Shown piece by piece: positions 17,527 to 41,081 of a stretch of DNA of 60,000 bases; position 1 is the first letter of the stretch; each line of letters opens with the position of its first letter. The notes under the pieces are model-generated. The model was not told where the DNA came from. It saw only the letters and a program-made list of their open reading frames with translations, and made no database searches. The stretch is from Bolinopsis microptera (lineage: Eukaryota; Ctenophora; Tentaculata; Lobata; Bolinopsidae), in NCBI RefSeq assembly GCF_026151205.1, contig NC_087078.1:3192175-3252174 (forward strand), written 5' to 3'. A program made the position numbers and the translations under genes.

Positions 17527-18924
17527 CTTCGAAAACATAACAAATTTGATAAAATCACACACGAAGCTATGCGCCGATGGTAATTCAGCCCAGAATTTAA
17601 TAAACAAAAACTGACGGGGTTAATGGAAAATCTTGTTAAATTTATAATTTTTAATAATATTATCGCTTGTTATAATTTTGATTGTATACCTCGAATTGAT
17701 TTTAATATTCTAACGATACAAATTTTTTTGTCGCAGTGATCTTTTCAGAAGCTTTATCAAATTTAAAGGAATCCGAACAAATAAAACAAAATTATTAAAT
17801 TAAAAGAATTAGCATTCACAATTCAAAAATAATTAAATATTGATCTTGGTGATTTAAATTTCTTATCATGTCGGGACCTTTCAAAAGTTTTGGTAGACAC
17901 GTATTTTAAGATTGCATTGCTTCGCGTAATTTTAATTTTGGCGCCGCGCAGTATCATGCTGCCTTTCTTGAGTTCACAAACCAGGGTCTAAGCGTATGCG
18001 TGATCGCGCTTGTTTCACAACAATTAGCGGCTTCGTAGAGTGGCGGTTTTTTTCGATTTTTTTTCGAGGAAAATTACAGTTGTAATGCTTATTTCGAGCG
18101 ATAAATATGGATGGCGGGGAGTTTTTTTCGAAAATGACTTGACCCAGCAACAAAAATCGGTTAATAAACAAACTAACAATTATACAAACTAATCCAGAGT
18201 GTGTTTGGGAGCTTGCTACGACTGTTTACTATTGATCTTCACAAGCCTTAGGGGAACCCCGTTGTTCAGGTGATACATGTATGAAAAATTGTACGACTAC
18301 CGAAGCGGGAAGCCCCGTACTAAATCGGGCCGGACTAATTGTCATTTTCGATTTAATGAGGTTTTCCGAGTGCTATCTTGAGAGATAAATGGTCGGGTTT
18401 TCTACTAGTTAGTAATCTGACACTCACACTTTCTGTTATATCATATAATTATAAGTATAATAACTACACATTAAACAGCTAACGCGCTTATTTATCTTGT
18501 TAGATTATGGGGAGATATATTAAATGCCAGAAGAATATGCCAAAGTTTACAACGAGAAATTGTTACAACTATGTTAAGATGTTGGTAATGAAAACGTAAT
18601 TATATTGCTAATCTAATGCGTATAAATGCGTTACACTATTATTGCACGGCCACAGCCGAGTGCAAATTGTTACAATAAATCGTACAAGCCGAATAAAAGC
18701 TGAATAAAAGCCGATTACAAGCTTACTCCGTCGGCAAACAGTCTTGTCATCCGCTTAATCTCTATTTTTGAACATTATAGACTGGCGGTCCCCAAAGTAA
18801 ATAAACCCGTTACAAACCAATAATCGATAACAAGCTGGAAAAGTTGATTCAAGCAGTTAGCAGAGTTCAATTATTGCAGTTTATTTCACGCGAGGGGCGT
18901 CAGCTATAGTTTTCTAGCTTATCA

Positions 18925-19490
18925 GTTCATCACGTGACTATTGCTAAACAACCATCACTTGACTATGCTAACAACCAATCACGTGACTACGGTAACAACC
19001 ATCTCAGTGGCTATGTAAACAACCATCATGTGCTATGGTAACAACCATTCACGTTATATGCTAACAAACCATCAGTGACTATGGTAACCAACCATCACGT
19101 GGCTATGCTAACAACCATCATGTGACTATGGTAAGGAACCTTCGCGTTTTTCTATGCTAACAACCATCACATGACTATGTAAACAAAACCATCACGTGAC
19201 TATGGGAAAACTTCACGTGACTATCTAACAACCATCAGTGACTATGGTAACAACAATTCCACGTGACTATGCTAACAACCCTCACGGACTATGGAGTAAC
19301 AACATCACGTGACTATGGTAACAACCGTCACGTGACTATGGTAACCACCACACGTGGACTATGCTATAATCCATCATGTGTCCTATGCCTAAAACCATCA
19401 CGTGACTATGGTATCAACAATCAGTGGACTATGGTAACAACCATCACGTGGACTCTGGTATCAACCATCCGTGACTATGGTAATGTACTT
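18925..19490. repeat. 23-bp minisatellite, orientation A
   Basis: About 24 degenerate units of CAACCATCACGTGACTATGG plus about three bases, forming the left part of the core of the large TIR element. Confidence 0.9.
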
Positions 19491-19509
19491 GGTGTATTTG
19501 TTGTCATTT

Positions 19510-22500
19510 TAAGTCACGTGATTGTTGTTACCACAGGTCACATGATGGTTGTTAGGCATAGTCACGTGATGGTGTTACCTTAGTCACGTGATTGTTGTTT
19601 CACATTGTCCCACGTGATGGTTGTGTAGCATTAGTTACATGATTGTTGTTAGCATAGTAACGTGATGTTGTTACCATAAGTACGTGTTGGTTTGTTCCAT
19701 AGTCACGTGAGGGTTGTGACCATAGTCACATGATGGTTGTTTGCATTAGTTCAGGATGGTGGTTACCCATAGTCACGTGATTGTTGTTACCATATTTATG
19801 TGATGGTTGTTACCATAGTCACGTGATGGTTGTTAGCATAGTCACGTGGATTGTTGTTGCATAGTCAGTGATGGTTGTACCATAGTTATGTGAAGGTTGG
19901 TATTATAGTCACGTGATATTTGTTACGCATAGTCACGTGATGGTTGTTAGCATAGGGTCACGTGATGGTTGTTAGCATTGTCACGTGATTGTTTGTTACC
20001 ATAAGTCACGTGATGGTTGTTACCATAGGCACGTGTTGTTGTTAGCATAGTCACGTGATGGTTGTTAGCATAGTCACGTGAATGGTGTTAGCATAGGCAC
20101 AGATTTTGTTACCATAGTCACGTGATGGTGTTACCATAGTCACGTGATATTGGTTGTCATAGTCACATGATAGTTTTTACCAAGTCAGTGCGTGATGGTT
20201 GTTGCATAGTCATATAATGTGTTGTTACCATAGTCCACCATGATTGTTTTGAATACCATAGTCACGTGATGGTTGTTTGCATTGTCACGTGATGGGTTGT
20301 AGCATAGTCACGTTGATGGTTGTTACCCATAGTTCACGTGATGGTTGTTACCATTTTCACGTGATGGTTGTTACCTTAGTCACGTGATGGTGTTAACAAG
20401 TCACGTTATATTTGTTACCATTGTCACGTGATGTTGTTAGCATTGTCACGTGATGGTGTTAGCATAGCACGTGATTGTTGTTACATAGTCTCGTGATGGT
20501 TGTTACCATAGTCAGTGATGGTTGTTAGCATAGTCACGTGATGGTTGTTAGCATAGACATGATGGTAGTTAGCATAGGCACATGATGGTTGTTACCATAG
20601 TCCAGTGTTATTTGTTGGCGTAGTGACATGAAAGTTTTACCATAGTCAAGTGATGGTTGTTAGCATAGTTCATATAATTGTTGTTACCAGAGTCACATGA
20701 TTGTTGTTACCATAGTCACGTGATGGTTGTTACCATAGTAAGTGATGGTTGTTAGCATAGTACGTTGATGATTGTATTGCATAGTCTCATGATTGTTGTT
20801 TCCATAGTCACGTGATGGTTGTTACCATAGTTGTCACGTGATATTGTTGTTCATAGTCACGTGATGGTTTTGTTAGCATAGTTACATGATTGTTGTTTAC
20901 CATCGTCACATGGGATGGTTGTTACCATAGTCACGTGATGGTTGTTACATAGTCACGTGTTATTTGTTACCATTAGTCAACGTGATGGTTGTTTGCATTA
21001 GTCAGTGATGGTTGTTAGCATAGTCAAGTGATTGGTGTTTACCATAGTCACGTGATATTGTTGTCATTAGTCACATGATAGTTGTTACCATAGTCAAAGT
21101 GATGGTTGTATAGCATAGTCATATATTGTTGTTCTTAGTCCACATGGATGGTTGTTACCTTAGTTCAAGTGGATGGTTGTTAGCCATAGTCACAGTGATG
21201 GTTGTTTACATAGTCACGTGTGGTACATATCGACCGCCCACGCGAGTTTACCATCCCAGTCACGTGTTGGTTAGTTAGCTTAGGTCACGTGTTGGTGTTT
21301 GACCCACTCTCTAGTCTCGTGATGGTTGTTAGCATGGCCACCATGATTGTTGTTACCATAGTCACGTGATGATGGTTGTTACCACTCTAGTCACGTGATA
21401 TTGTTGTAATAGTCACATGATAGTGTTACCATAGTCCGTGATGGTTGTTAGCACATAGTCATATAACGCGACAGCGAGAGTTACCATGTAGAATGCTATC
21501 TTTGATTTTTGTTTTACCATAGTAACGTGATGGTTGTTAGCATAGTCACGTGATGGTTCCCCCCACCCCCCCCCCCCACCCCCTGTCCCTCGCCATACTT
21601 GCTCCACGTGATGGTTCCGTTTACCCTGTACAGTCACGTGTGGTTGTTGCATAGTCACGTTGATGGGTTGTTAGCATTAGTCACGTGATGTAGCACACGC
21701 GCGTTAGCATAGGCTACATGATTGTGTAACCATAGTCACGTGTTGGTTGTTAACATAGTCCAAGTGAATATTTGTTTGTCATAGTCACTGATAGTTGTTC
21801 CATCAGTCACGGGGATGGTTGAGTTAGCATAGTCATATAATTGTTGTTACTTTAGTCACATGATGTTGTTACCTAGTCACGTGATGGTTGTTAACATAGT
21901 TCAAGTGATGGTTGTTTTAGCATTTGCACGTGATGGTTGTTAGCATAGTCACGTGATGGTTGTTACAATAGTCAGTGTGGTTGTTACCATAGTCACGTGA
22001 TGGTTGTTTACCATAGTCACGTGATGGTTGTTACATTGTCACGTGATATTGGTTACCATAGTCACGTGATGGTTTGTTAGCTTAGTCAGTGATGGTTGTT
22101 AGCTTAGTCACGTGAGTGTTTGTTGTTTACCATAGTACGTGATGGTTGTTACCTTAGTCACGTGATGGTGTTAGCATAGTACGTTGATGGTTGTTTGCAT
22201 GGCACATGATTGTTTGGTTACCCATAGTAACGTGATGGTTGTTACCATAGTCACGTTGATAAGTTGTTGTCTAGTAACATGATAGTTGTTTCCATAGTCA
22301 CGTGATGGTTGTTAAGCATGTCATATTTTCCAACATCCCCGGGTTCGTTCATTCATAGTCACAGTATGGTTGTTACCATAGTCACGTGATGGTTTGTCCA
22401 TTGTCAAGTGATGGTTGTTAGCATAGTCACGTGATGGTTGTTTAGCATAGTCACATGATTGTTGTTACCATAGGTCTCGTGATGGATGTTACCTTAGTCA

Positions 22501-23080
22501 CGGTATTGTTGTCATAGTCACGTGATGGTTGTTATCATAGTTACGTGATGGTTGTTAGCATAGACACATGATGGTGGTTAGCATAGTAACGTGATGGGTT
22601 GTTACCATGTCACGTGTTGGTTGTTAAACATAGTCACGTGACGGTTCTTACCATAGTCACATGTGGTTGTTGCTTAGCCTCGTTGATGGTTGTTACAATA
22701 GTCAAGTGATGGTTGTTAGATAGTCACGTGATGGTTGTTAGCATAGTCACAGTATTTGGGGTTACCATAGTCACGTGATGGTTGTACCATAGGTCGTGAT
22801 ATTATGTTGTCATAGTCACGTGATGGTTGTTATCATTGTTAAGTGATGGTTGTTTGCATAGGACACATGATGGTGGTTTGCATAGTCCACGTGATGGTTG
22901 TTACCATTGTCACGTGTGGTTGTTAACATGTCACGTGCGGTTTCTTACTAGTCAATGATGGTTGTTAGCATAGCCAAGTGAATGGTTGTTAGGCATAGTC
23001 ACGTGATGGTTGTTAGCATAGTAAACGTGATGGTTGTTAACCATAGTCAATGTTGGTTGTTAGCTAGGTTCTCTTGATGA
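19510..23080. repeat. 23-bp minisatellite, orientation B (reverse of A)
   Basis: About 150 degenerate units of TCACGTGATGGTTGTTAC plus about five bases (CATAG), the reverse complement of the left array. The two meet at a short spacer near 19,480-19,510. Many units carry one-base gaps or insertions, in part probably read error. Foreign patches interrupt at about 21,225-21,245, 21,465-21,515, 21,560-21,600 and 22,325-22,350. Confidence 0.92.
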
Positions 23081-24929
23081 AACGGATAAGCTAGAAACTG
23101 ATAGCTAAGCCCCTCGCGTGTATTTAACTGCAATAATTGAAAACTCTGCTACTGCTTGATTCTAACTTTTCAGCTTGATCGATTATTGGGTTTTGTAACG
23201 GGTTTTAGTTTACTGGGGACCCCAGGCCTATAATGTTCATAAATAGAGATTAAGCGGAATGACAGGCTGTTTGCCGACGAGTAAGCTTGTATCGGCTTTT
23301 ATCAGCTTTTATCGGCTTGTATCGATTTTTGTATCAAATTTGCACTCGGCTGTGGCGCGTGCAATTATTAGTGTAATCGCATTATACGCAGTTAGATTAG
23401 CATATATAATTACATTTTTCATACCAACTTCCTTATCATTGTTTGTTCAATCCTTTCTCGCTGTAAAAACTTTTGGCATTTTCTGGCTTTTTAAATAGAT
23501 CTTCCACATAATTCTAACATGATACAACTAAGCTGCGTTAGCTGTTTTAAATGTGTAGTGTATTATACTTATAATTTATGTTATACTTTATAGTGTGAGT
23601 GGTGTAGTATACTACTAGTAGAACCGACCATGTATCTCAAGATAGCAGTCGGAAACTCATTTAAATCGAAAAATAGACAAATTAGGCGGCCACCGGTTTA
23701 GTAAGGGGCTTCCCGCTTCGGTCGTCGTTACATTTTTTCTTACATGATTCACGTCAGTGAACAACGAGGGTTCCCTAAGGCTTGGAAGATCAATTAGTAA
23801 CAGTTGTTAGCAGCTCCCTATCACACTGGATTGTTGTTAATTGTTAGTTTGTTTATTATCGTTTTTTGTTGCTGGGTCAATACCATTTTCGAAAAAAACT
23901 TCCGCCATCCCTATGTCTCGAAAATAAGCATTACACGGTATTTTCCTCGAAAAAATTCGAAAACAACCCGCCACTCTCTTACGCATTCGGTGGGTTCACG
24001 CGCTACTGCAAACGAGAGGGCTAGTGGTTAGGCAACCTTCTGAGTACTAATATAGTATAATATATATTGAATTTATATATATTGAATAAATAATAGAATA
24101 TTTTAATACGTGATCGTGTTTATGCACTTAAAGGGTGATGATACTCGTAAAAATATTTGTTCCATTGCATATATTTATATTAGGACCGTCGACAGAGTCC
24201 AGACTCGGCGGCGCGTTCTGGTAGGTTATAAACCATTACAATTTTGAACCACAAAAATTCTTTGACCATTGTTAATGATCTGGCCCGGCGCGCGCTACTT
24301 CTTAGCACTTGCCATCGTGATACTTGCTTTCGAGAAGAAAGGAAAGCTGCCGCCGCGCTTACTTTCGCGTGTCTGACAACTGGCTTAGTCCATACCAACG
24401 AGTAACATCCGTCAAAAAATTTAAGGTCCCAAGGCAAATTGTTCATTATTGTTAAAAACTTAACGGACATGAAAATTGAAACCTGAGTAATTTTATTTTC
24501 GAGTATCAAAAATTATAAACATTCCAATTTATTGAAGATTTAGATTTAATATATTGAGCCCTTTGGCTAGGAATATTTCTTAGATATTTTGGACAGTTTT
24601 TAAATTATATTGATAATGTTATGAATTGTTATTGATTGTTATGTATTTTTTAGGCCCGTGGCCAGCTTTTTCTAGTGTAAGTAATAATAAACTAAATATT
24701 ATATGCTTTAGTTAGCTTCAATTACTGACGTAAATGACGATGTGTACCTTCAGTTGCAGCATCGCAAGCCCATTTCATACCTCATCTTTTTATTTATATA
24801 CTAGGCGTATATGACATTTTATGCTATTCACAGAGGCCAGGTATTACAGGGTGGGCTAAGTCACTGGAAATGCGTTGGCCTTAATTTGCTACGCCCACAG
24901 GAGGAGCTAAGTGCAAAGATACTGTCCAA

Positions 24930-25140
24930 CTAACTGCTACAAACTGCCACTAACTAACTTGCCACAAACTGCACTAACTGCCACAAAACTGCCACTAACT
25001 GCTACAAACTGCCACTAACTGCCAACTAACTGCCACAAACTGCTTAACAATCGCGCCCACTAGGCATTTGCGCGCGACAGTAGCAGTTAGTGGCAGTAGT
25101 GGCAGTTGTGCAGTTTAGTTGCAGTTAGTGGAAGTTTTAT
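24930..25140. repeat. Subterminal ACTGCCACTA tandem repeats, left
   Basis: Repeated ACTGCCACTAACTGC-type units, then a GCGCGC-containing turn (about 25,050-25,075), then the same units inverted. The block itself can fold back. The mirror block is at 37,455-37,690. Confidence 0.85.
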
Positions 25141-28059
25141 GCGCGTCGGATTTTCATATCGAGCGCTCATCTATTTTTATAATAGCCAAGTCCGCAGCGT
25201 TTAGAGCTGCACTTGTTGATATGGGCAGCTCTCAGCCTGTACATTCCACCGAATTCTCTATTCATTAATGAACATGATAGAAACTGAGGTTCCCCAGGTA
25301 CATTGTTGACTAACCAGACTGTGCACGTTGTGCTAGATGTCAAATGTTGCAGATAGCGTTATTACGTTTTTAAAACCTATGTTTGATTTGATTTGCTTGA
25401 CTTACTTGTAGTAAACGGTCGGCCGTTTTACAACACGGCCAATTTGACTGCTTGTGTTAGTTTCGACCACTAAAATTTTGTTCTCGCAGCATGGTATATA
25501 AAGGTTTGATATGAATTATGAAATGAGAAGGTCGTGTATTATGTTGTTTATAATAGATTCAGAAAGGACTCGTATATGTGCATAAGTATATTGAATATTT
25601 ATTATTATTTCATATCCATGAATTATATTCATGCAGCTAAAAGCAATCAGCATTTATTTTTATTTATGATAAGATGATAAGTTCATATGAGCAATTTTTA
25701 ATTTAGTCCGCATAGGCTAGGAGTCTCCCCCCCAGTATCGAGTTTTATTTGTGATTAAAAATTCTCTCGGTATTAGGAAAACTGCTGTTGATAGACCGGA
25801 GCGCTGCAAAAAATTTATAGCTTGTCTGACGAATTTACAATTATTTATACAAGTATGACCACTTTTCGGATTTTAGAGGGTGCTGTCCAGACTATGAGTT
25901 GTTATCGGTGCGTTGTATATCGTTTGAAGTAAAAGTCGGCACTAAAAATTAAAGTAAATATTACCTCACGCACACACTAATTGCATACGTTTGTTAATTT
26001 TATTGTACTCTTATCAGCTGAGCTTATTCTCCTACCTGAACGCCTAACGGAGAGATTACTTTTTTTTTTTTACGTTTCTGACAGGTAAAAATTAATAAAC
26101 AATAAATTTCACTATGAAACGTATTCATAATATGAATATATATTAGAAAAGTTGCTAGTTGGTTCGCCACCGTGCAATAGGATCTGTTTCCGTTCCGTTC
26201 ACTTTTAAGGTTTAAAAGCCTCTATCCGATTGATTTTGCCCTTATGACTTAGTTGTACTTGTAGTGAATTCGTACGGAGTCGTTCACTAAATATTCGTTT
26301 GTGAACGCGTTCGCTAAAGATTTTTTAAACGTTTGGAACTGCCTATAAGGATACGTTAAAACACGGGCCTCCACGGAATTTAACAGTTTGTGCGGAGAAA
26401 GATAGTGAAAGAGTGTACGAAGCCAAAGAGTTCTCGACAATTGTTCCAAGCCTGCCTCACCGCTGGCAACGCCAAATGCATGCAGGACTTATTTCCTAAT
26501 CATGCAAACCTATACAACGGCTGACCAAGAATGGACACAGGAATGCACGGTACCACTATAATATTTGATTTGATTCTCGTGATACTGATTGACTAGCAGT
26601 AGCAGGAATTTGCTGCTGCTTATAATTCATGGGCGTTGCTAAACCTGTCATTCCGCCCTATCTGCTAACGCTAGAGAACATATTTTTAGCGCAATAATAT
26701 TCAATGTTAAATCAATGTGTTTACTTATAAATGAAAAGCCTGAGCGGGTTACCGTACACAGGTAAATTGCTTTGCAGTTGAATTTGCGTTTCTGAAACCA
26801 CTTCTGCACTGGTAATTGTATTTAAAAGGGAACACAAAATGAATAATCGTGTCCAAAATTATTCCCTGCGCGAACCGCCTGTGATAGCCGATATCTGATA
26901 AGATTCTCTTTCAAGCATTCAGTTTCAGTTAATTCTGGGTAATTCGCGCGTAAATTCATATTGGCTCGTGTGCGTTCCATGTTCTCAGAATTAGGCAACG
27001 GTACGTATATAATCTTTAACTTTAAATGTTTGCAAACAGGTTGTTGTTTATTTTATGCTGGAATCCCAAAAAGTGCTTGATCGGCCAGTTCATCATTGTG
27101 TCTTGCATAATTACTTTGCTAGTTTCATTATGCTTCGACGAATCATCACTGTTTTGCTTGGGGTGGTATTCAACTGTTAGGGTCCCTACTGTAAACAGCC
27201 ATTGTTTCGCTTATAGTTATCAAACAGCAACTAACCGATTGTCCAATGGGTCTCAGCCTTAGATTAGAACATTTAGGCTAACGTGTGGCTCGGAAAAGTA
27301 TAATCTTCATGGTATGGTCTTATATATGATTTTGGTCTATTAGAACGAGTTTTAGTGAAAATTATCCTGGACCAGAGATGATTAGGGAATAAAAATAATA
27401 CTTCGTTCCGTGAAAACTGACTTTTTTGATATTAGTCATTACTATCATATCAATATTTATAAAGGGAAATTTTTTTTTAAAAACTTTTCGACAAGAGGAT
27501 CGATGATAATTTTGATGCATTAATTATCAGTCCGTTAGTTTAGCTGTATTAATAGTTCTATAACAGTTTTAGTTTAGATGTAATATTTAGTTCGTAAACG
27601 TGCACGACAAAGTTTTAATATTGCTGAACCTTGCGCAAACGGTTTGAAATCTTTTGTCGACAAGGTTTTTTAACATTTGGGGATAAATTTGGGATTAATT
27701 TTACTTCGGAATATGGGATTTTAGCATGACGTGTCATTCTTTTTTTTTAGTTCAGTTCGTTTTCAAATTTTTAATCTTAATTTTAATTTTCAGTACGTTT
27801 TACTAACAAAATCTTTTTTACTTTTAGTAGCAGAATGGTTTTCAGATTGCTTAATGAACTGTGCTATAGAGCTGGTCCCAAGTCCAGAGCCATTTTATTC
27901 TTGTAATTTTCATTAACCATGTCTAGTCATTGACTACTGATTTATGAAATCACTAATCTTTCGATTTCTGTGACACTAAACGCCTTGATTTATCAGTCCC
28001 TATATTGAATAGTTCATGCGCAAATTACCTAGTTTAGCCGTCATTTAATTAGGTACAGA

Positions 28060-28250
28060 CCACTAAAAATAGTTTAGTGAAAGCGTTCGCTAAAAGATTT
28101 TAACGTTCGCAAAATAATGGTAAAGGAACGTTATCAGATTAAAATATCAACACGTCGACACGCCTATCGTTTCCGCAATTTGACATGTTCTAGTTAGTTA
28201 GGAGTGTTTTAGCGCGCATGCATGCACGTTCACTTTTTCAGGCACTTTAA
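28060..28250 (+). repeat. Dispersed repeat R, copy in the left palindrome arm
   Basis: Contains ACTAAAAATAGTTTAGTGAA, AAAGGAACGTTA, ACACGTCGACACGCCT and GCATGCACGT. It recurs inverted at 31,850-32,060 and, in part, at 26,235-26,350. The right arm of the palindrome does not carry it at the mirrored place, so it inserted after the palindrome formed or moved within it. Confidence 0.65.
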
Positions 28251-31200
28251 AAACTCCGTATATAGTGTTTCTGGATTAGAAGTCGACTATTTATGCTAAT
28301 TCTCGAGACGATAATAGTCTTGCTTGATTTTCAGACAATAGTCTTAAGTTTCCAGTTGGTTTCATTGGTGTGTTTATTACAAATATTATCTGTTCGCCTT
28401 AAGTTAGCAAATTTTGCTTTCGCAATTGAAACTATTAAAGCGATATGATTGGTCTGCAACAAAAGGGGCTCGAGCGCCATTCCCGCCTACATTCAGTAGG
28501 GTTTTGTGTTCACCCGGCTTATATATCAGGGATTTGATCAACACACGATTCTGATGTCTGGAGGAGTTTCGGCAGTATCGAGATAGCCCGGGACCAATGT
28601 CCGCGGGACAATGTCACGAAACACCTGTCTACCAGATCTTTACTGCATTTTTGGACGCTATCCCTGAATCAAGCAGGGTTACATCATCCCCTGAATCAAG
28701 CAGGGTTTCACATATCCCCTAAAATCAAGCAGGGTTCACATTCAACGCACGCGAATTTCATTCAGCGGTGGTTGTCAGGCTTATTAAACGATTAAGCAAC
28801 CTGACGGGAGGCGGGGGGTCCAGTAATTTCGTCCATTAGACAGTAGAGTACATGTAGGAATTGGAATAGCTGTTGTTGTTGTGTTGATGATGGCAACTGA
28901 TAATACTTTCACCAAAATCGAAACGACTTATATACCACATTTTAACTCGTAATATTTTTTTCATTGAGCAATCAATATTATTCTACTACCTTGGAAGGGA
29001 GTTTCTAGATGTCAATGTGACAAGTGGTATGTGACGGCGCTAACAAAGAAGAAGATACTTTAATTTCGCTGTACACTGTTCTACAGAGAGAAAAAGTGGC
29101 TTATTCTCTACTGACGCTATGCCTATGTTTTAGCAAGTTTCTGACGGGTCCAGTCTCTTGGTGGTGAGCATCTTCGGTTGAGATGTACCCGAACATACAG
29201 AGTCTTTCCAATGAAAGCGCTGTCGCAATCGACATCAGCCTAACCCTGATGAGACGTATTTGGAGCTTGTACGAATGGGTGATAAACAAAAAAGAAACCG
29301 CCCCACAGTTAACAAGCAGCGATACCTTATTATTATTTATGTTATTAATTTAAGTTATTATATTATGTTAACACAAGTTTGCGTTTTATGAAAAATTCAC
29401 GAATTAAGGAGCACATAAATTTTAATTATTATTTGCTATTGCGATACTAGGTGGACTTATTTTTTTTCATTGTTGTTTATTTACTGTCTATTCCGACAAC
29501 ATAGTTTTTTCTTTTCATTGTATCATTTAAGTTAAAAACGGACCTTAAATGAACGCTCGGAGCGGAGGATTCAAACGTTTACGTACGGGCGTTTTGACTT
29601 GAACGTATATGGGCAGACAGACTTAGTGATCTTTAAGTTAAACGGATATTAATATATGTACGCTATGCTAGCTGGGGCCTCTTCTCAGACTCTCGCGCGT
29701 TCAATTTGAATTGATGTCGATTCAAAATTAAAGTTATTTAAAGGTTCAATAAGATATACTTGTCATTGTGGTTTGATTTTGGAACCTTCTCTAGACCTAG
29801 TAATTTTGGTTTCAGTAATTTATGTGCGAGAAATAGCTTCCCAGTCCCACGTCAAAGTGATTTTATAGATTATCCTTATTTTTAAGGGAATCGTTAGGTA
29901 TTCGTATTACTTATAGTATAGTTTTATTATTACACGGTACCTGACCAATATTATTCCCGCGCGATGTTATGACAAATTAGATTCTCTCTTCACTTTGATC
30001 ACTGTTTCTTTCATAAAACAGATTGCTGCGTCAAAGATATTGTTTGCGCGGCTTTTGGTACTCCCAAAAGTACGTCAAATTGTAATTCTGTGAATTGCAT
30101 TATTATAATTTATAGTCATAGGTATAGCTCCATGTTAGTGTCCTACTGGGACTGGTCACCGTTATCCTTGTTTAACTTTAACTGGTCGGAAAAGCGGATG
30201 TGTTATGAAAAATATGTTTATCGCTTTGGCCATTCGGCCGGTAGGAATTAGATCAGAAAATCATGCGGGATACCGATTATAAGACGATAAAACAGTTATC
30301 GCATTTTTTACCTTTACTAAGGCTAATGGTGATGCACGCTAATGGAATTACCTTGATCAGAAGAAGTAAAGACTTTTGCTTTTGGCAAATCTAACAACCA
30401 CGGATATTAAATTTTTCAGCGACATCAACGCTAAAATCGAAACGATTTTCACTTCAAGTTCTTATTTGAGAAAGTAAGAAGTCGGTGGGGGATCGCGACC
30501 GGGTTGGGGGAATTTTTTTTTTACAAAGTAGTACTAGTATGGTTTTCTACTAGTTATGGAACTGTGAAGGTAATTCGTTAGAAGGCTTCTTTACATCTCC
30601 GATCCCCCGGGGTGCGGATAGAAGAAAAACATTTTTTATAGTCTTGGACACTTATTACTAGCTGATAGCACAGACTAAGTTTTTGTTAGGAAGAATTAGG
30701 GTCCGCAAAAGATGACGGTCAGGATAAGTTCTTTGTCTGTAATGTACAATATATTATTATAGGGAGACGAAACACTTTTTGGGTTAGAGAATGGTATGCT
30801 ATAGAAAGTATCATGTAAATTAAGGTACGTATTGGTACCTATTGGTAGAATTGTGGAACACAACAAGAAAATTGAGAATTATCTTGTGCGAGGGTAGGAA
30901 ACCCAGATGGCTGTTTTCTAACCCAATAAAAACTTTATGGAGTACTTTTTCGCAGTAGCCGACCTGATCCTTAATTCGGGTTCTGAAAACTGGTTTATAT
31001 GGGCTTACCAGACGGCCAGACGAGTCTTACCATCCACTTCCTTCTTAGGAGTTCATCACAAGTAGCACCCACCTTGAAGATCTTTGACACCCAGACACAA
31101 CCATTGGCGAACATCTTTGGATATAATCTTACATGCTCCCGATGGATCCCAGGTTTATGGTCTATCTCCTCGTCACCAGCACTTTCGCTAGATCGTCACC

Positions 31201-31849
31201 AGCCCTTTCACTGGGAGTATCAGCCCAATCATTGAAGTGTACACGAATACAGTTGTGTGTTAGATCAATTCTTGGTCTAACATTTAATACTAATTCGTGG
31301 TAAAATCAATTCGCAATGTGCACTCAATGGCAGTTCTGGTCCAGTACGGTAACTTTAGTCTTTAACTTAAACTGTTTGGTAAACGATGTGTACATGGGAA
31401 GTTTTTTATTGTTTATCAGCCGGTAAGTATTTGGAGGGAAAAATCTGCATACACCAGACGAAAATTTTGTATGATTGAGAGTTTGCTTTTACTTATCATG
31501 TCTAAATATTAATAAGGTTTCTTGGCTCAGGTTTTTGATGTATGGGAATGAAAAATAATTTCACTCGAATTTCGACAGATCTTATTACTAACTTGACTGT
31601 ACTTGTATGCTCAAACCGCATGAGTTTATTGATCATCAACTTTCAATAGTTCAAAAGGTATTTTCAACCATAATTAATGATGACACATTTATCTGTTTAA
31701 TGCTCGATACGTCATTCCGTGTACTTTACAGTGTCACAATTACGTAGAGATGCTGTGATGATAGACATTGCGGATGCTGTCCATTTTCGATAATGAGATA
31801 ACATATTTTTTCATTAAATAACTAAAAATTATTAGACATTTTAATAGTT

Positions 31850-32060
31850 ATCTGCTGGCACGTGCATGCTCGCAGCGCTAAATCTCTTCTAACTCATCTA
31901 GAACAAGTAAATTGCCGGGAGGAGGAAACGGAGGCGTGTCGACGTGTTAATATTTCAAATTGATTAACGTTCCTTTACCTTATAGTTCCGAAACGTTAAA
32001 TCTTATAGCGACGCGTTCACAAACTATTTTTAGTGAAGTTCCGTAACGTTCACTACAACT
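31850..32060 (-). repeat. Dispersed repeat R, inverted copy
   Basis: Reverse-complement relative of 28,060-28,250: CGTGCATGC, AGGCGTGTCGACGTGTTAAT, TAACGTTCCTTTACCT and AAACTATTTTTAGTGAAG appear in mirrored order. It lies near the centre of the 12.8-kb palindrome. Confidence 0.65.
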
Positions 32061-32270
32061 AAAGCCGGGTGTCTTCAAAGTTAAACTAAACTTCATCTTG
32101 GACAATGGGACATCATATTTGCGGGACCTATTTCTTCCTAACAAAAACGTAGTCTGTGCTATAGCTAGTTATTAAGTGTCCAAGACTATAAATAATGTTT
32201 TTCTTCTATCGTACACCGGGATCGAGTTGTAAGCTTCTAAACGAATTACCTTCAGCAGTTCGGTTCACGT

Positions 32271-33650
32271 ACTGTAGTGCGCACGACTCTAGTGAGGCTG
32301 TTACCCTAGTGCGAAACTCCAAGTCGACACTGTCGCTAGGAGAGTTACGCTACGGATCGTAGTGCGATCACGTACCCTAGTGCGACAGGAAATTTTCAGG
32401 CGACACTGTCGCACTACAGTCGCGTTCCTGGACTGTAGTGGCTGTGCAGACACGAACTAAAGGGCGACAAAACACTTTACGCAATAAAAATTTGACTTCC
32501 ATTTTTAGTTTTGTTTTAAATGAACAGAGTGTAGTGTGTATGAGTATATATGGGGTTAAATATAAAATCAAAGTTACCAATCCACGAAGATTAGGTCACG
32601 GAGGATTAGGTCCACGAGCAAAAGCACCCGATCCATTCTTAAAGTACTTCCATACTGCTGAGTTTCTCTGCGTTGTATTCCGGGACTAGGTCATGTTGCT
32701 GCATTTTCCTCCAAAGTTGCTTGCTTGTGGTGGAAGAAAAGCATTACTCTCTTGGTAGTATACAGGTTGTCTCACAGCGTTTATCAGGGCTCTCTCGTAG
32801 TCGCTATGACTGATGAGGTGTCGACTCCAAAAGCAAGGAGCTCATCCAAGAGGGCTTCATATGGTCCAACAGCATCTGCAATTTGGTGTTTCGTAGGAGA
32901 GGTCAGTATCGGAAGCTTTCCGTTTTCATTTGTGCTTTGCTGTGTGGACTGAGTTTGCTGCAGGAGTAGGTGGGTGGGATTAAGTCTTCGAATGCGTCAC
33001 TGTAGTGTAGTTCATCAGACTGAGCGTCCGGAGGCATGATTCTTCCTAGTGGGATAGCCAGTAGGGTCTGTCGTCGCGCTTCTAATTATCCAGGCAGTAG
33101 CGGTATCCGTGTGGATAACGTTTCTTGAACCAGTAGTGCGTCAGGACATGGAGGTGATTGAAGAATACATGTTGTGTTGTCGATGCTTGGGTAGATAGAC
33201 ATCATCGTGACTTTATATATATGCCCAAGAATATGAACTTGTTATCCAAATCGGAAGATATACTTCATCCGATACGTGTGATAGGAATGAGGATCATTTG
33301 CTGCTTAAGAGTTACCCGGTGGGGATCTCACACTGCATACGTGGATTGAATGACCCGTAAGGAATTGGATCAGTGGATCACTTCGATAACCGTGGATAGT
33401 GAACCGACGAATGTATTCGCAAGATTCAAATCGAATAAGTGACGTGAACCGACCCGACGAATCCACTTATGGTACTTAAGAAGGATGGATGTGACTGAGC
33501 TTGGAATAAGTAAGGATATTTTTGTGCAGGTAGTGTACGCTACCGGATGGGTAGTGCGACACGTACCCTAGTGCGGACAGCTGAGGGTGTTTTTGTCGGA
33601 CTTCGCACTAGAGTACGTGTAGAATTACAGTAGTGGTCGCACTACAGTAA
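32271..33650. mobile_element. Nested insertion with GTAGTGCG inverted ends
   Basis: It interrupts the right palindrome arm. 32,120-32,260 and 33,665-33,800 are both mirrored by 30,360-30,720 in the left arm, where this segment is absent. The left end carries TACTGTAGTGCG and CCCTAGTGCG; the right end carries CGCACTAGAG and CGCACTACAGTA, roughly inverted. No motif-bearing frame inside. Borders are approximate. Confidence 0.55.
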
Positions 33651-33916
33651 GATTACCCTTTCTCTAAGTAGATCTTCGAAGTGGAAAATCGTTTCCTATT
33701 TTACTTTTTAGATTGTTGTCGTGAAAATTTCCGTGGTTTTTAGATTTGCCAAAAGCAAAGTTCTTACTTCTTTCTTCTGATCAAGGAATTCCTTAGCGTT
33801 GCATCACCATTGCCTTAGGTAAGGTATAAAATTCGTTAACTGTTTTATCGTTTATCGGTTATACGGCTGATTGTCTGATCTAATTCTACCGGCCCGAATG
33901 GCATAAGCGTAAAACA

Positions 33917-34298
33917 GCTCCTACTAATCGCTCGCAAATTTTAAGAAAATTCTTGTAGAAAAAAGGCCACATTTAGGCATATGAAAGTGATCTGGATCGG
34001 TGTTTTTTTGGACGCTGATTCCGATTCACCCCCCATGACGTTGGGTTAAAATGCTTCCCTGGAGAGTTATGGGCAAAAACCGTTTTGGTCACGTGACAGG
34101 CTAGTTAAACGTGAATTTCGATTATTTAGGGCACGGGTTAGGGTTAGGGGTTTGTGGTTAAGATTATGATAGCTTCGGGGTTATGGTTAGGGTTAGGGTT
34201 GGGATTGGGTTTATGTAAACCGTGTTTGTTACGGCTGCAAAACCAAAAAAACCAAAGTCACGTGAAATTTTTGGGCGAGAGATTTTGTAAGAGCCGCG
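33917..34298. mobile_element. MITE with 8-bp target duplication and telomere-like core
   Basis: Imperfect inverted ends: left GCTCCTACTAATCGCTCGCA; the right end reads GGCTCTTACAAAATCTCTCG on the other strand. Flanks GTAAAACA (33,909-33,916) and ATAAAACA (34,299-34,306) agree at 7 of 8 bases. The mirrored left arm (about 30,190-30,230) lacks the insert and reads through GATAAACA on the equivalent strand. The core has degenerate TTAGGG units (34,135-34,205). Confidence 0.65.
34135..34205. repeat. Degenerate TTAGGG repeats
   Basis: GGGTTAGGGTTAGGGG and GGTTAGGGTTAGGGTTGGG are separated by a less regular stretch. It is inside the MITE, so it is not evidence for a chromosome end. Confidence 0.8.
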
Positions 34299-37200
34299 AT
34301 AAAACAGTATTTTTTCATTAAACAAATCCGCCGCGGTTTCCAACAGTTTAAGTTAAACAAAGGTTAACGGTGCCAGTTCCTCGTGGGTCAATGACATGGA
34401 GCCTTATTTCCTATGACTATAAATTTATAATAATGCAATTCCAAATTCACAGAATTGCATTTTGACGTAATTTTGGGAGTACCAAAAGCGCGCCAAACTA
34501 AATATATTTGACGCGCGAATCTGTTTTTGAAAGAATCTGTCAGAGTGAAAGATCTAAATTTGTTAATAAACATCGCGAGGGGATTAATATTGAGTCACGT
34601 ACGTGTAATAATAAAAACTATATATAAGTATACGCATACCTAACGTTCCCTTAAAAATAAGGATAATTATAAATCACTTTGGCGTGGGGACTGGGAAGCT
34701 ATTCTCGCACATAACTTACGACATCCAAAATTCTAGGGTCTAGGAGGTTCAAAATCAAAACCAGCAATGATAAGTTTATCTTATTGAACTTTAATTAACT
34801 TTAATTTGAATCGACACCAATTCAAATTGAAGCTCGAGAGTCTGAGAAGAGGCCCCAGCTAGGGCATAGCGTACATTTATTAATATCCGTTTATCCTTAA
34901 GTTTTAAATAGGTCTGGGGGGCCCCATTTACGTTCAAGTCAACGCCCGAAGTAAACGTTTGAATGCCTCGGGGCTCCGAGCGTTCATTTTAATGTCCGTT
35001 TTTAACTTTAAATGGTTAAATGAGATATTAAACTATGTTGTCGGAATTAGCAGTAAATAAACAACAATGAATAAAATAAGTCACTAGTATAGCAAGAAGC
35101 AAATAATAATAATTATTGCTCTTAATTCGTGGAATTTTTCATAAGACGCAAAACTTGTGTTAAACATAAATATAATAACATAAATATAATAACATAAATA
35201 ATTAATAAGTCTCGCTGCTTGTTAACTGTGGCGGGCAGTTTTTTTTGTTTATCTCCCAGTCCGTGCAAGTCCAATTCGTCTCACAGGGTGAGGTGATGTC
35301 GATTTGCGACAGCGCTTTCATTGGAAAACTCTGTAGTTCGGGTACCTCTCAACCGAAGTTGGCTCCACCATGAGACTGGACCGTCAGAATCTTGGCCTAA
35401 ACTTGAGGCAGCGTCAGTAGAGAATTCAGTAGAGATATAAGCCTATTTTCTCTCTGTAGAACGTGTACTGCGAAATTAAAGTATCTTCTTCTTTGTTGCG
35501 CCGTCAACCACCATCGTGTCCATAACATCTAGAACTCCTTCCAGACATACTGATTCGTGTGTTTATCATTTCCCTGATATATATGCGGGGCTGAACACAA
35601 AACCCTACTGAATGTAGGGGGGAATTGGGTGCTCGTGCCACCTTTTGTTGGCAAGACTAATCATATCGCTTTTATAGTTTCAATTGCGAAAAGCAATATT
35701 TGCTAACTTTAAGGTGAACAGTAATATGTATTAATTACACCGATGAAACCAACAGGAATCTTAAGATATTGTCTGAAAATTCTAAGCAAGGACTATATCG
35801 GCTCGAGAAATTGAGCATAAATAGTGAACTTCTATCCCAGAAAACCTAGGAGATTCGGGGGACTCCTGTTGTCATATTGATGGGAGGTCGACTTTACGGC
35901 TTTGATCACAGACGTCCGATACAGCTTGGAAAGCGCAAGATCTGCTGATGAGCAATTCCGTGGTCTGTACTCCTAATCAATGACGGCTAAAACTAGGTAA
36001 TTTTGCGCATGAACTTTTCAATATTATTCGATTTACTTTTCAGAGCCACCGAATTGAAGCCTGTATTGTTTATGGCTGAGGAACCCATCTGGATATCGTG
36101 TTAGTAGCTGTCTGCAAACTATTAAGCGTATTAATGGCTATTACAGTAGGCCCTCAACAGTTTGAATACCATCCCCAAAGCCAACAGTGATGATTAGTCG
36201 AAGCATAATGAAACTAGCAAGTATTTTAGCGAGACACAATGATGAAACTGGCCGATCAAGCACTTTTTTGGATTCCCAGCACTAAAATAAGATCACTGTT
36301 TCCAACAGTTAAAGTTAAGATTTATAAACTTAACGTTGCCTAAGTCTGAGAACATGGAAGCACAGTGCCAATATGATTTTACGCGCGAATTACCCAGATT
36401 AACTAAAAAAGGAATGCCGTAAAGAGAATCTTATCGCGTCGCGCTGGAATAATTTTGGTCACGACATCTTTTTGTGTTCCCTTTTGAAAACCAATACCAG
36501 TGCAGAGAGTAGTTTCAGAAACGCATATCAACTTGCAAAGATTAATGTACCTGGGTAACTACGCTCAGCTTTTGCATTTTATTAAGTTTAAACACATGTG
36601 ATTTAACATGAAAATTTTTTATGGCGATCTTAAAAAATGCTATAGCTGATAGGGCGGTATGACAGGTTTAGCAACGCCCGGGGAATTATAGCAGCAAATT
36701 CTGCTACTGCTAGATTGCCTTATTCAGTATCACGGAGAATCGAAGCTAATATTATAGTGGTACGATGGCATGTCCATTCTGGGTCAGCGGTGTAATTGTA
36801 TTTACTTATTATGTTGCATGGATAGTCCCTGCTTGCTGTTGGCGTTGCTGCTGCGAGGCTGGCTGGTATAATTGTCGGAGAAAACTCTTTGGCTTCGTAC
36901 TCTCTTCACTTCTTTCTCCGCACAAAAATGTTCAATCCGTTGGGAGGCCCTGTTTAGTCAAATAAAAGTATGAACCCTCAATCATGGTTTAGTTCTAAAA
37001 CTTTGGTAATGGAAATTGTAGTTTTGTGCTTTCTCATAACTATCGTCTATTCGAACTGTGATCAATAAAACATCACGCGGTTGCTACACTCAAAGTTCAG
37101 TTAAGGAGTCGTTTACTATCAGCAGAGGGGTCTTCCAAATTGCAAATGATTACGATTGACCATATAATATTGTAATTTTGGCACCAATAGCACAATATCT

Positions 37201-37454
37201 AATAGCGATACCCGGATTTATTTAACATTTAACAATTTTGTTAATCGTATTGCCATGCAGTTGTTTGTGTAAACTGTAGTACTAGTTGGTAATCGTTTTC
37301 TTGTAAAAAGTAATTTTTGTTTCCTTCGATAGTAAATTATTTTGTCCCCAAAATTCATATATTTTATAATAATACAAAATTGTTTTTAGACCAATTATTC
37401 AAATGTCAATAAGTCATGTGGCATGTAAGCGCCAAAGACAAATTGCTAAAAGGC

Positions 37455-37690
37455 TCGGCGCAACTGCAGAAACTGCCACTAACTGCCATAACTGCTACAT
37501 ACTGCCACTAACTGCTACAAACTGCACTAACTGCTGCAAACTAGCGCGCGCAGTGCGTTGGGCGCGAATTGTAGCTGTTAGTGGCAGTTGAGTGGCAGTT
37601 AGTGGCAGTTAGTAGAGTTGTGGCGTTTGTAACAGTTAGTGGCAGTTTGTGGCAGCATAGTGGCAGTTGTTGCAGTTAGTGACAGTTTTC
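37455..37690. repeat. Subterminal ACTGCCACTA tandem repeats, right
   Basis: Mirror of 24,930-25,140: units of ACTGCCACTAACTGC, a GCGCGC turn (about 37,543-37,565), then GCAGTTAGTGGCAGTT units up to the right terminus of the large element. Confidence 0.85.
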
Positions 37691-37917
37691 TTTGCACTTT
37701 GTCCTCCTGTGCGGCCGTGTTTTGTATTTGAGAGCTGTTGCTATGCTCGTTAGCATACTGTTCCTTCTGGTAACTGGTCAAGATTCCGTGTCAAATTTGA
37801 AAAATTCGAATATTTTTAGACCACGCCCATTCAAAATTAAAAACACCTATATTGTTTTTTTCTCTGAACTTGCTGGGACGCCTAATTTTTCAGAGACGGT
37901 AATTATTAAATGTTGCA

Positions 37918-39171
37918 AGTTAATTCACTACTTAAGGTCTTGTGGGTGGGTGCAACAAATTTCAGCTTCTAACACACAGAGATTGGGGGCATATTAGATC
38001 TTGTTATTACCAGGATGGTTTCTTTTTTTATTTTTAAACTCACGATTGCATTGAAGTTCTAGATCCTGTAATTACTGATTCTGGCACATCGTCTGTCCAC
38101 TACTTTGTTCTTTTAATTGCAATGTTTGTAATCTCCAGCCCCATTGGCACTCTATAGAACCAATTACTTACAGAAAACATTGCTTTTGCTTTAGACCTAG
38201 ATGCTTTTTATTCTGAGGACATTCTTAAGTCCAAAAACTATGTGACACTGATTGCTTCAATGACCTCGTAGTGCAGTTGATATCTATGAGTATGTGCTGT
38301 GCAGTATTTTGGAACAAGCTTGCTAAAGAAAAACTTTCATCCCAAGAAAAGATCATAAACGCCTGAATGGGGTCTACACACTGTGCAACTAGCAAAAGCA
38401 ATGAGAAGGAAGAAAGGATTGAGAGAATGTATCAAAAGAATCATGATTGCCCAGATTTTTAACGACTGTACAGGAAAGCATCAGAGAGTGGCATCCTTAG
38501 TCATTGTTTTCCACAAGAGATCACTTCTACAACACAAGGTCTACAAGATAGTGCAGGTGATGTAAAAAGACTTATTCCACGTTAATAAGTTGCTCAATTA
38601 AAGAAAAAGGTTGATACTACTACACCTTCTTGCTCCTTCATATCTTGATGAGTGCTAAAAACTGTGCACAGTTCTTTAAATCAAAGGTCGACAACATATA
38701 CAACAACATTTATTTAGAACAACAATCCAGGATTCTCCTAACTCCAGAGGATTTGTTCTCTTTTAATAGCCCAAAGATAGTTCAATTCCGTCTTGTGTCT
38801 GATGAAGAAACTAGTAAGGCTTCATAAAGAATATGTCTAACAAATTGTGATCTTGACCCCATACCTACAATGATTCTCATTCAAGTGTATACAGAATCTT
38901 CCTTCTGATTCATTTATAGTCAATGAATCATTAGTTAAATGTGAGTTTCCTATAAACTTAAGGGAGGCTCATCATTCGTCCAAGTTTGAGAAAGAAGAAA
39001 ATGGCCTTGACGATGAATCTCTATCTAACTTATAGGCCCTATTTAGCAATCTTTCTTTCTTGTCAAAATTCATTGAGAATGTGTATCTTACAGCTCACGT
39101 TATCTTGAGGATAACATAACTTGCCTTTCTAAAGTTCAGTCCGGCGATAGGAAGTTTCATAGTGTGAAACT
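37918..39171 (+). pseudogene. Decayed non-LTR retrotransposon fragment
   Basis: Translation in shifting frames gives the end of a LINE endonuclease (CGWVQQISASNTQRLGAY, then LDLVITR and DPVITDSGTSSVHYFVLL, where the SDH-like motif is degraded to SVH). Linker-like sequence follows (WNKLAKEKLSSQEK, AMRRKKGLRECIK, CAQFFKSKVDNIYNNIY), as found between endonuclease and reverse transcriptase. There are many stops and frame changes and no polymerase. It separates the two X-unit copies. Confidence 0.6.
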
Positions 39172-40736
39172 CTTCGAAAACATAACAAATTTGATAAAAT
39201 CACACACGAAGCTATGCGCCGAGTAATTCAGCCCAAGAATATATAAACAAAAACTGACGAGTTAATGGAAAATCATAGTTAAATTAATAATTATAATAAT
39301 ATTATCGCTTGTTAAATTTTGATTGTATACCTCGAATCTGATTTTAATTTTACTAAACGGAACATATTTTTTTGCGCAGTGATCTTTTCGAGCTTTATCA
39401 AATTAAAAGGAACCGAACAAATAAAACAAAAATTAAATTAAAGATTAGCATTCACAATTCAAAAATAAATAAATATTGATCCTTGTTGATTTAAATTTCA
39501 TATCATGTCGGGACCTTTCAAAAGTTTTTGGTAGCACCGTATTATATAATTTGCATTGCTTCGCGTAATTATTAATTTGTGGCGCCGCGCATTATCATGC
39601 TGCCTTCTGAGTTCACAAAGCCATGTATCTACGCGTACTGCGTGACGCGCTTGTTTCACAACAATTAGCGCCTTCGGCGGTCACGCGCTACTGCAAGCGA
39701 GAGGGCTAGCTGGTTAGAGCAACCTTCTGAGTACTAATATAGTATAATATATATTGAATATATATATTGAATATAATAGAATATTTTTAATAACGTGATC
39801 GTGTTTATGAACTTAACGGGTGATACTCGTAAAATATTTGTTCCATTGCATATATTTATATTAGGACCGTCGACGAGTCCAACTCGGCGCGCGTCCTGGT
39901 AGGTTATAAACCTACAATTATGAACACAAAAATTCTTGACCATTGTTAATGATCTGGCCCGGCGCGCGCTACTTCTTAGCACTTGCCATCGAGAACTTGC
40001 TTTCGAGAAGAAAGCTGCGCGCGCTACTTCGAAGAAATTTAGACGAGTAACATCCGTCAAAAAAATTCAGGTCCCAAGGCAAATTGTACATTAAATGTTA
40101 AAACTTAACGACATGAAAATTGAAACCTGAGTAAATTTTATTTTCGAGTATCAAAAATTTATAAACATTCCAATTATATTGAAGATTTAGATTTAAATAT
40201 TGAGCCCTTTGGCTAGAGAATATTTTCTTAGATAGGACAGTTTTTAATATATGATAATGTTAATGAATTGTAATTGATTGATATGTAATATTTAGGCCCG
40301 TGGCCAGCTTTTTCTAGTAGTATTGTATAATAAACATAAAATATTATATGCTTTCGTAGCTTCATTACTGAGTAAATGACGATGTACCTTCAGTTGCAGC
40401 ATCGCAAGCCATTTCATACCTCTTCTTTATTATATATATAATAGGCGTATATGACATTATATGCTATTCCACAGAGCCAGGTAATACAGGGTGGGCCAAA
40501 AGTCACTGGACATGCGTTGGCCTTAATTAGCTCCGCCGTGTTTTGTATTTGAGAGCTGTTGCTTTGCAGATAGCATACTGTACCTTCTGGTAACTGGTTC
40601 AAGGATTCCGTTGTCAAAATTTGAAAATTCGAATATTTTAGACCACGCCCATTCAAAATTAAAACACCTATATTGTTTTCTCTGAACATGCTGGACGCCT
40701 AATTTTTTCAGAGACGGTAGATTATTAAATGTTGCA
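39172..40736. repeat. X unit, copy 2 (uninterrupted)
   Basis: 1.56 kb, matching 17,527-18,035 plus 23,990-24,895 plus 37,712-37,917 with small indels. It preserves both empty insertion sites: GCGCCTTCG at about 39,668-39,676 and AGCTCCGCCGTG near 40,530. The short GAGGGCTAGCTGGTTAGAGC stretch looks like a polymerase III A box, but no tRNA fold follows. Confidence 0.85.
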
Positions 40737-41081
40737 TCTGATCTGAAAAAAATGACGTGAAACGGATTAGAAATGACGAAGTTATCAAGCATTTTGTGTA
40801 TCACGTTAACAAAATTGACTGGGTGATTATGTGACACATCTCTAATTTTTTCAGGACAAACGTAATTCGAATGGCCAAACACAATTCAATAAAATTTAGC
40901 TCGATCCAACTATCCAAACTATAAAATAAATGCAAAAAAGAACCTTCATTTGAAAAAAATGAAATCGAATATTTTTCGATTTGACAAATTCCTCGAACCA
41001 GTGGTGATAGTAAGTCGTATTGGCCACTCAGTGACTGAGCTATTAAGGAATACAATTTTTTTTCTGGGAGGGGTGGTTGGA

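Follow-up and report, generated by a model that had tools for sequence, protein, structure and literature searches.

Two unrelated families of inverted-repeat elements and a probable unpolished gap fill at one locus of the comb jelly Bolinopsis microptera

When considered from the structure of their ends and target sites, transposons that resemble those described here fall into several known kinds. The hAT elements have termini of the pattern 5'-YARNG and the target consensus nTnnnnAn, and FB/NOF is an example of the foldback elements. The subject of this report is a stretch of 60,000 nucleotides of Bolinopsis microptera (hereafter the window; C7:3,192,175-3,252,174 of a genome of 264.65 Mb in 232 contigs, 13 of which are 15-26 Mb long), in which two large terminal inverted repeat (TIR) elements, E1 and E2, interrupt one of the two versions of a unit that is continuous in the other. 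E1 and its diverged relative E1b resemble hAT elements in their 8-bp target-site duplication (TSD) and in their termini TAGAG or TAGGG, which fit 5'-YARNG. They differ from them in that the E1b gene has no significant Pfam hit, including to the hAT transposase domain, and in that the core of E1 consists of inverted 23-bp arrays; the hAT target consensus is found at three of eight E1-type target sites.

Other likenesses are equally partial. With the foldback element Tetris of Drosophila virilis, as presented in the available part of its description (PMC4079207), E1 has in common TIRs followed by internal tandem repeats, an apparently non-autonomous nature and a short form, here of 835 bp, but its two arrays lie inverted to each other in the core and a candidate autonomous relative, E1b, is present in the same genome. 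E2 recalls the Chapaev/CMC elements, for which the portion of PMC4079192 at hand gives 5'-CAC...GTG-3' termini and a 3-4-bp target duplication, to be compared with the E2 ends and a TSD of about 4 bp. In contrast to these, E2 shows no DDE transposase in the pieces tested, its long forms have end pairs separated by 9-24 kb and inverted arms that are long but broken, and an E2-related element on C3 carries a hAT-type C-terminal fragment. Finally, the locus as a whole resembles the false (haplotypic) duplications of assemblies (outlined in the accessible text of PMC9516828) in having what are probably two versions of one locus side by side, except that one version here would be an unpolished read with transposon insertions. 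In the literature searched, judged from titles and abstract openings, no publication on the E1 or E2 family was met. E1 and E2 are two unrelated new families of known kinds, and the duplication and apparent age of the locus are most likely assembly effects.

Two versions of a unit and the noise in one of them

An earlier reading of this stretch (hereafter the original prediction) described a duplicated unit whose left copy is cut by two TIR elements, and self-BLAST of the window bears out this geometry: three blocks match consecutive parts of the continuous, empty version and are interrupted by E1 and E2 (Table 1). The block matches overlap in the continuous copy by 8 bases at the E1 target site, where it reads CGCCTTCG, and by 3 bases at the E2 target site, where it reads CCGCC. 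That the empty copy gives the element borders was also correctly foreseen, as other genomic copies show the same ends and target duplications. A third insertion, a 1.25-kb high-copy repeat with no TIR visible by eye at either end, breaks a miniature inverted-repeat transposable element (MITE) of the filled version at a point where seven of seven other MITE copies and the empty copy run on; we take this MITE to be mariner-like from the appearance of its end and the flanking TA. The whole unit, minus its high-copy 3' end, occurs at least twice in the genome, both times in the window, among the 40 of 4055 candidates scored.

The two versions differ strikingly in quality. Rates for the E2, E1 and flank comparisons rest on an indel-neutral alignment, and counts marked MAFFT inflate substitutions, because under the gap costs of that program short indels end up as mismatches. 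Compared with a clean copy on C2, the window E2 has 286 substitutions (2.9%), 421 inserted bases (4.3%) and 315 deleted bases (3.2%) over 9,823 positions in two of three aligned parts, with a transition/transversion (ts/tv) count of 50/236 and 124 A>T against 18 T>A changes. The window E1 arms, set against the C4 copy, show 58 substitutions, 79 inserted and 50 deleted bases over 1,704 positions (A>T 25, T>A 1), and the flanks, read from empty to filled, 50 substitutions, 95 inserted and 41 deleted bases over 1,524 (A>T 25, T>A 5; 8:2, 13:2 and 4:1 for the individual blocks). Pooled, A>T stands to T>A as 174 to 24 (p ~3e-29 under equal chances). In a control, five clean E2 copies, picked from near-consensus ones, were compared with the copy at L043 and gave 24 substitutions (0.25%) over 9,465 positions, ts/tv 18/6, with neither A>T nor T>A. 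The excess runs in the same direction on the assembly strand in both inverted E2 arms (113:46 and 75:34, MAFFT) and in both inverted E1 arms (16:7, p 0.14 alone, and 23:6, p 0.0005, MAFFT). Since the bias keeps to the assembly strand across inverted arms, it is a property of the strand read and not of the element. A profile in which insertions exceed deletions and deletions exceed substitutions is typical of PacBio continuous long reads (CLR).

Genomic relatives place this noise in the window copy. Over a 1.85-kb stretch aligned for 30 E2 loci (MAFFT), 24 of the 29 non-window copies lie within 1.4% of the consensus, and 23 within 0.9%, against 9.6% for the window. The 1.25-kb repeat appears noisy as well: 34 full-length genomic rows, among the 40 of 73 candidates scored, all match the window at 89% with near-equal scores, and the noise extends to the end of the repeat (88% over 38,856-39,171), directly before the clean start of the unit at 39,172. 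The empty copy, for its part, is clean. Relative to the consensus of seven other MITE copies, themselves 0-2.6% away from it, the filled version differs at 24 of 228 positions with 10 indels and the empty version at 3 of 234 (MAFFT), and the edit distances to the seven copies are 30-33 and 12-17, respectively. As only 6 of the 50 flank substitutions are transitions, which is within what the noise gives, the two unit copies are nearly identical once noise is allowed for. The 10-13% difference between them is thus almost entirely read-type noise on one side.

Origin of the locus

Taken together, these sequence patterns make it likely that 17,527-39,171 is a gap fill from one uncorrected CLR-type read, derived from an insertion haplotype or a near-identical paralogue and placed before a corrected empty version, so that the unit would represent a single locus recorded two times, with the empty copy probably the other allele. 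The "duplicated unit" of the original prediction would accordingly be two versions of a single locus, a noisy gap-fill read beside a corrected contig. In such a course of events, E1, E2 and the 1.25-kb repeat would have inserted into the locus on one haplotype (or in a near-identical paralogue), and a raw read from the insertion haplotype would then have been used to join one contig, whose last base is 17,526, to the next, whose first base is 39,172. The unit start would in consequence stand at both edges, with the filled version raw and the empty version corrected, and short reads would later have polished the clean copy only. The assembly, as set out in the available sections of its report (PMC10232365), was built from PacBio and Illumina data by means of wtdbg, HiRise, TGS-GapCloser, Purge Haplotigs and pilon. 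TGS-GapCloser, by the portion of its description at hand (PMC7476103), puts a read segment between two contigs without keeping the estimated gap size.

Several points weigh against a gap fill of this kind. The same portion of PMC7476103 states that TGS-GapCloser error-corrects its candidates and reports Q35 inserts. As pilon, moreover, ran after gap filling, a raw fill could have survived only if the correction did not work or was not applied. TGS-GapCloser also relies on a read that aligns on both sides (PMC7476103, same portion), a requirement most simply satisfied if two copies of the unit were truly present in the read. It is also a heavy load for one allele to have received three insertions when the other received none. 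Where the noise begins on the left is set by the unit itself, and to the left of 17,527 no comparator separates clean from noisy sequence. CLR or HiFi libraries are named for three species in the available text of PMC10232365, which leaves the type for B. microptera unspecified; that the read was a CLR is what we infer. Lastly, some further E2 loci also stray from the consensus, namely L048 (2.8%), L054 (3.9%) and L058, L068 and L070 (17.7-30%, all MAFFT), and these could be older copies, subfamilies, misalignments or further unpolished patches.

The chief alternative, which we consider unlikely, is a true tandem duplication of the unit, with E1 and E2 later inserted in the left copy and the gap closed by a raw read legitimately spanning the region. 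The genome does hold two whole unit copies, 21.6 kb apart, as this explanation demands, but the right-hand copy begins where the noise ends, and the residual divergence of the copies is close to zero, so that the duplication would be very recent and yet already hold three insertions. That the filled block is instead a naturally old or hypermutated copy with ancient insertions is very improbable, even if the divergence of the window arm segments amounts to 14-25% of aligned sites (MAFFT), as great age would lead one to expect. Neither age nor hypermutation accords with an A>T excess bound to one strand in both inverted arms, with an indel-rich profile, with a ts/tv of about 0.2 under indel-neutral alignment, or with the 23 other E2 loci so close to their consensus. 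Moreover, the Kimura two-parameter distance (MAFFT) is 0.15-0.30 between window arm segments and 0.09-0.14 between filled and empty flanks, and arms more diverged than the flanks are impossible where the empty copy split off first and the element then inserted with its arms alike. This paradox points to an artefact. Dating by arm divergence was dropped, the window differences being noise.

A different question is whether E1 and E2 form one foldback family with a common mechanism, as the original prediction suggested from their architecture. The inverted arms and tandem repeats that it noted are indeed present in both elements, but the tandem units differ (23 bp in E1, 10/20 bp in E2), the termini are unrelated (TAGAG and CACAG), and the target duplications measure 8 bp and about 4 bp. 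Abundance separates them too, with 8 genomic ends at no more than two mismatches for one E1 subfamily against 303 ends at no more than one mismatch for the E2 pattern CACAGGAGGAGCNAAGTGCAAAG (159 on the plus and 144 on the minus strand; none for a reversed-pattern control). A single family is therefore hardly credible.

The E1 and E2 families

Searching the genome with the termini, as the original prediction had proposed, yielded further copies of both elements together with their target duplications. With the first 600 bases of E1, copies were found on C4, C9, C11 and elsewhere, and the termini of E1 and its relatives read TAG[A/G]GTGGCGG. Perfect 8-bp TSDs (TAATTTAA, CTCTACAG, ATTTTAAC, CCGACCAT, GGCCATGA and TTGTTGCT) flank six of the eight copies with both ends read, a set that pools E1, E1b-like and TAGGG relatives, and the TSDs of the C11b copy and of the window copy are imperfect. 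Clean E1 ends (both of C4, the outer ones of C9 and the left one of C11a) are 97.8-99.7% alike and the window ends 87.7-89.2% identical to them, ranges that omit C11a_R (75-86%; just 511 bases cut out) and the E1b rows (71-77% to E1). The C4 copy, of 4,978 bp, has 0.6-kb outer TIRs at 99% and a core of two inverted arrays of the 23-bp CACGTGA unit, with 43.8 and 54.5 copies; array match levels are 88-89% there versus 70-75% in the E1 of the noisy block. The short E1-related form lies on C12. At C9:9436104-9451543, an E1 copy holds a nested E1b, with perfect 8-bp TSDs on both. E1 is thus a genuine, recently active TIR element that duplicates its target, as is E2, and we infer both to be of the cut-and-paste type.

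Neither the window E1 nor the window E2 contains a closed open reading frame (ORF) of at least 120 aa, counted from stop to stop. The statement of the original prediction that the elements lack a transposase stands, within the tests made, for the E1 of the window, and the autonomous relative that it had proposed to seek has a candidate in the case of E1. E1b, which has the same outermost bases as E1, measures 9.28 kb on C9 (nested in E1) and 8.64 kb on C11, with TIRs of 0.53 kb at 98-99%, and both copies carry common ORF pieces that can be read as exons of one gene. No significant Pfam hit was obtained for eight of these pieces (three hits were at chance level, E 0.09-0.19) or for the 732-aa chain, and the chain has no match in PDB, one piece having a chance-level match (E 0.51). 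Exon clusters matching the pieces occur at at least 13 further genomic places among the 61 of 259 candidates scored, as would be expected of a mobile gene, and one diverged match lies inside a 455-aa open frame at C1:7397391-7398338. An E1b exon, used as the query against viral contigs, gave no relative. Having a length of 8.6-9.3 kb and a multi-exon gene, E1b is a candidate autonomous partner of E1, and because the ends are shared, the E1b protein probably mobilises E1. The copy on C11 adjoins an array of 49.7 perfect 6-bp GACCCT units (L072 1-298).

E2 is an abundant, apparently non-autonomous family with MITE-sized derivatives. Neighbouring plus and minus ends among 100 listed places form 23 pairs 9.2-24.2 kb apart and 10 pairs 144-539 bp apart, compared with 0.3 within 30 kb by a crude estimate of the random expectation, and from these two spacing classes it follows that the long and MITE-sized forms have common ends. 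Other elements may be nested within the longest pairs; the pair at C1:10,490,797-10,515,034 spans one E1b-type exon cluster. The E2 end is present in 26 of 30 loci, the window included, each time with CCTGTG followed by unrelated sequence, and is lacking in L048, L058, L059 and L070. The C2 copy, of 12.4 kb, can be aligned with the window E2 over its whole length save for a few larger indels; the window copy has broken inverted arms and subterminal 10/20-bp arrays, and two arm segments of the C2 copy differ by only 0.7% and 3.4%. Target duplications were read in two copies: TCGA stands on both sides in C2, and the window site fits CGCC if noise is allowed for.

Among 12 typed ORF pieces and chains of the C2 and C3 copies there was no Chapaev DDE transposase, with the Pfam coverage of Chapaev unchecked and no genome-wide partner search made. 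The related element on C3 does, however, carry in its arms a fragment of the hAT-type C-terminal stretch PF05699 (E 9.3e-8 for a two-frame joined chain, 0.027 for one frame). Other candidates from these pieces, DUF6524 (E 0.0014) and MULE (E 0.12, joined chain), fell below the cut-offs, and the rest were at chance level. This C3 relative (C3:7538000-7547000; L079 with L076 and L077) is 9.2 kb long, with 1.3-kb arms that are 98% alike, and a different core that contains a 159-aa ORF, and its inner part appears to have undergone a further inverted duplication to give the longer arms of E2.

Features of the window and their significance

Table 1. Features of the locus (window positions) and of the E1b elements (positions in loci L071 and L072).
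Feature	Position	Strand	Basis
Noisy block, filled version plus third insertion	17,527-39,171	+	~10% indel-rich, strand-biased differences from clean relatives where a comparator exists; exact ends presumptive
Unit block 1, ending in E1 target site CGGCTTCG (18,028-18,035)	17,527-18,035	+	self-alignment (self-BLAST, 89% to 39,172-39,676)
E1, 5,946 bp, TIR element with 8-bp TSD (left CGGCTTCG, right CGCATTCG, empty site CGCCTTCG)	18,036-23,981		self-alignment, genomic relatives
E1 left arm	18,036-18,926	+	inverted copy of right arm; first 600 bases 87.9-89.2% to clean C4, C9 and C11a ends
E1 inverted arrays, 23-bp CACGTGA-containing unit	18,928-23,062 (18,928-19,483 and 19,512-23,062)		TRF
E1 right arm	23,087-23,981	-	self-alignment, comparison with clean ends
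Unit block 2, with its end inside the mariner-like MITE	23,982-24,895	+	self-alignment (self-BLAST, 87% to 39,669-40,537), MITE comparison
E2, 12,816 bp, ends CACAGGAGG...CCTCCTGTG, TSD ~4 bp	24,896-37,711		self-alignment, genomic ends
E2 arm segment, matching 36,030-36,955 in inverted orientation	26,359-27,305	+	self-alignment
E2 arm segments, matching stretches within 33,658-35,843 in inverted orientation	28,268-30,474	+	self-alignment
Unit block 3, remainder of the broken MITE as far as the third insertion	37,714-37,917	+	self-alignment (self-BLAST, 90% to 40,535-40,736), MITE comparison
1.25-kb high-copy repeat, apparently noisy, interrupting the MITE of the filled version	37,920-39,171		genomic matches and MITE copies
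Continuous (empty) unit version	39,172-40,736	+	aligns to the three blocks; MITE part close to consensus of other copies
Clean mariner-like MITE of the empty version	40,484-40,837	+	comparison with other genomic MITE copies
E1b elements	L071 301-9583; L072 301-8939		two copies, 98% alike over 8.7 kb

Elsewhere in the window, the minus strand of 46,400-51,935 carries ORFs of 540, 511 and 406 aa for a Kv-type channel (BTB_2 and Ion_trans) and an ionotropic glutamate receptor, and tandem arrays of 60-bp and 20-bp units with 93-96% matches occupy 53,072-56,082.

The apparent age, degeneracy and "duplication" of the locus are most likely due to errors in reads and to the mixing of haplotypes, and this calls for caution in repeat dating and in the calling of segmental duplications in gap-filled long-read assemblies. 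The strand-bias test requires clean relatives only, and no reads, and could flag similar patches elsewhere. It is possible, if rather improbable, that E1 and E1b represent a lineage with 8-bp TSDs, a multi-exon protein absent from Pfam and outside the named superfamilies, and non-autonomous members whose kilobase-scale inverted CACGTG arrays are able to fold back. For comb-jelly genomics, the gain is two young element families with defined ends, together with a candidate autonomous gene of unknown class.

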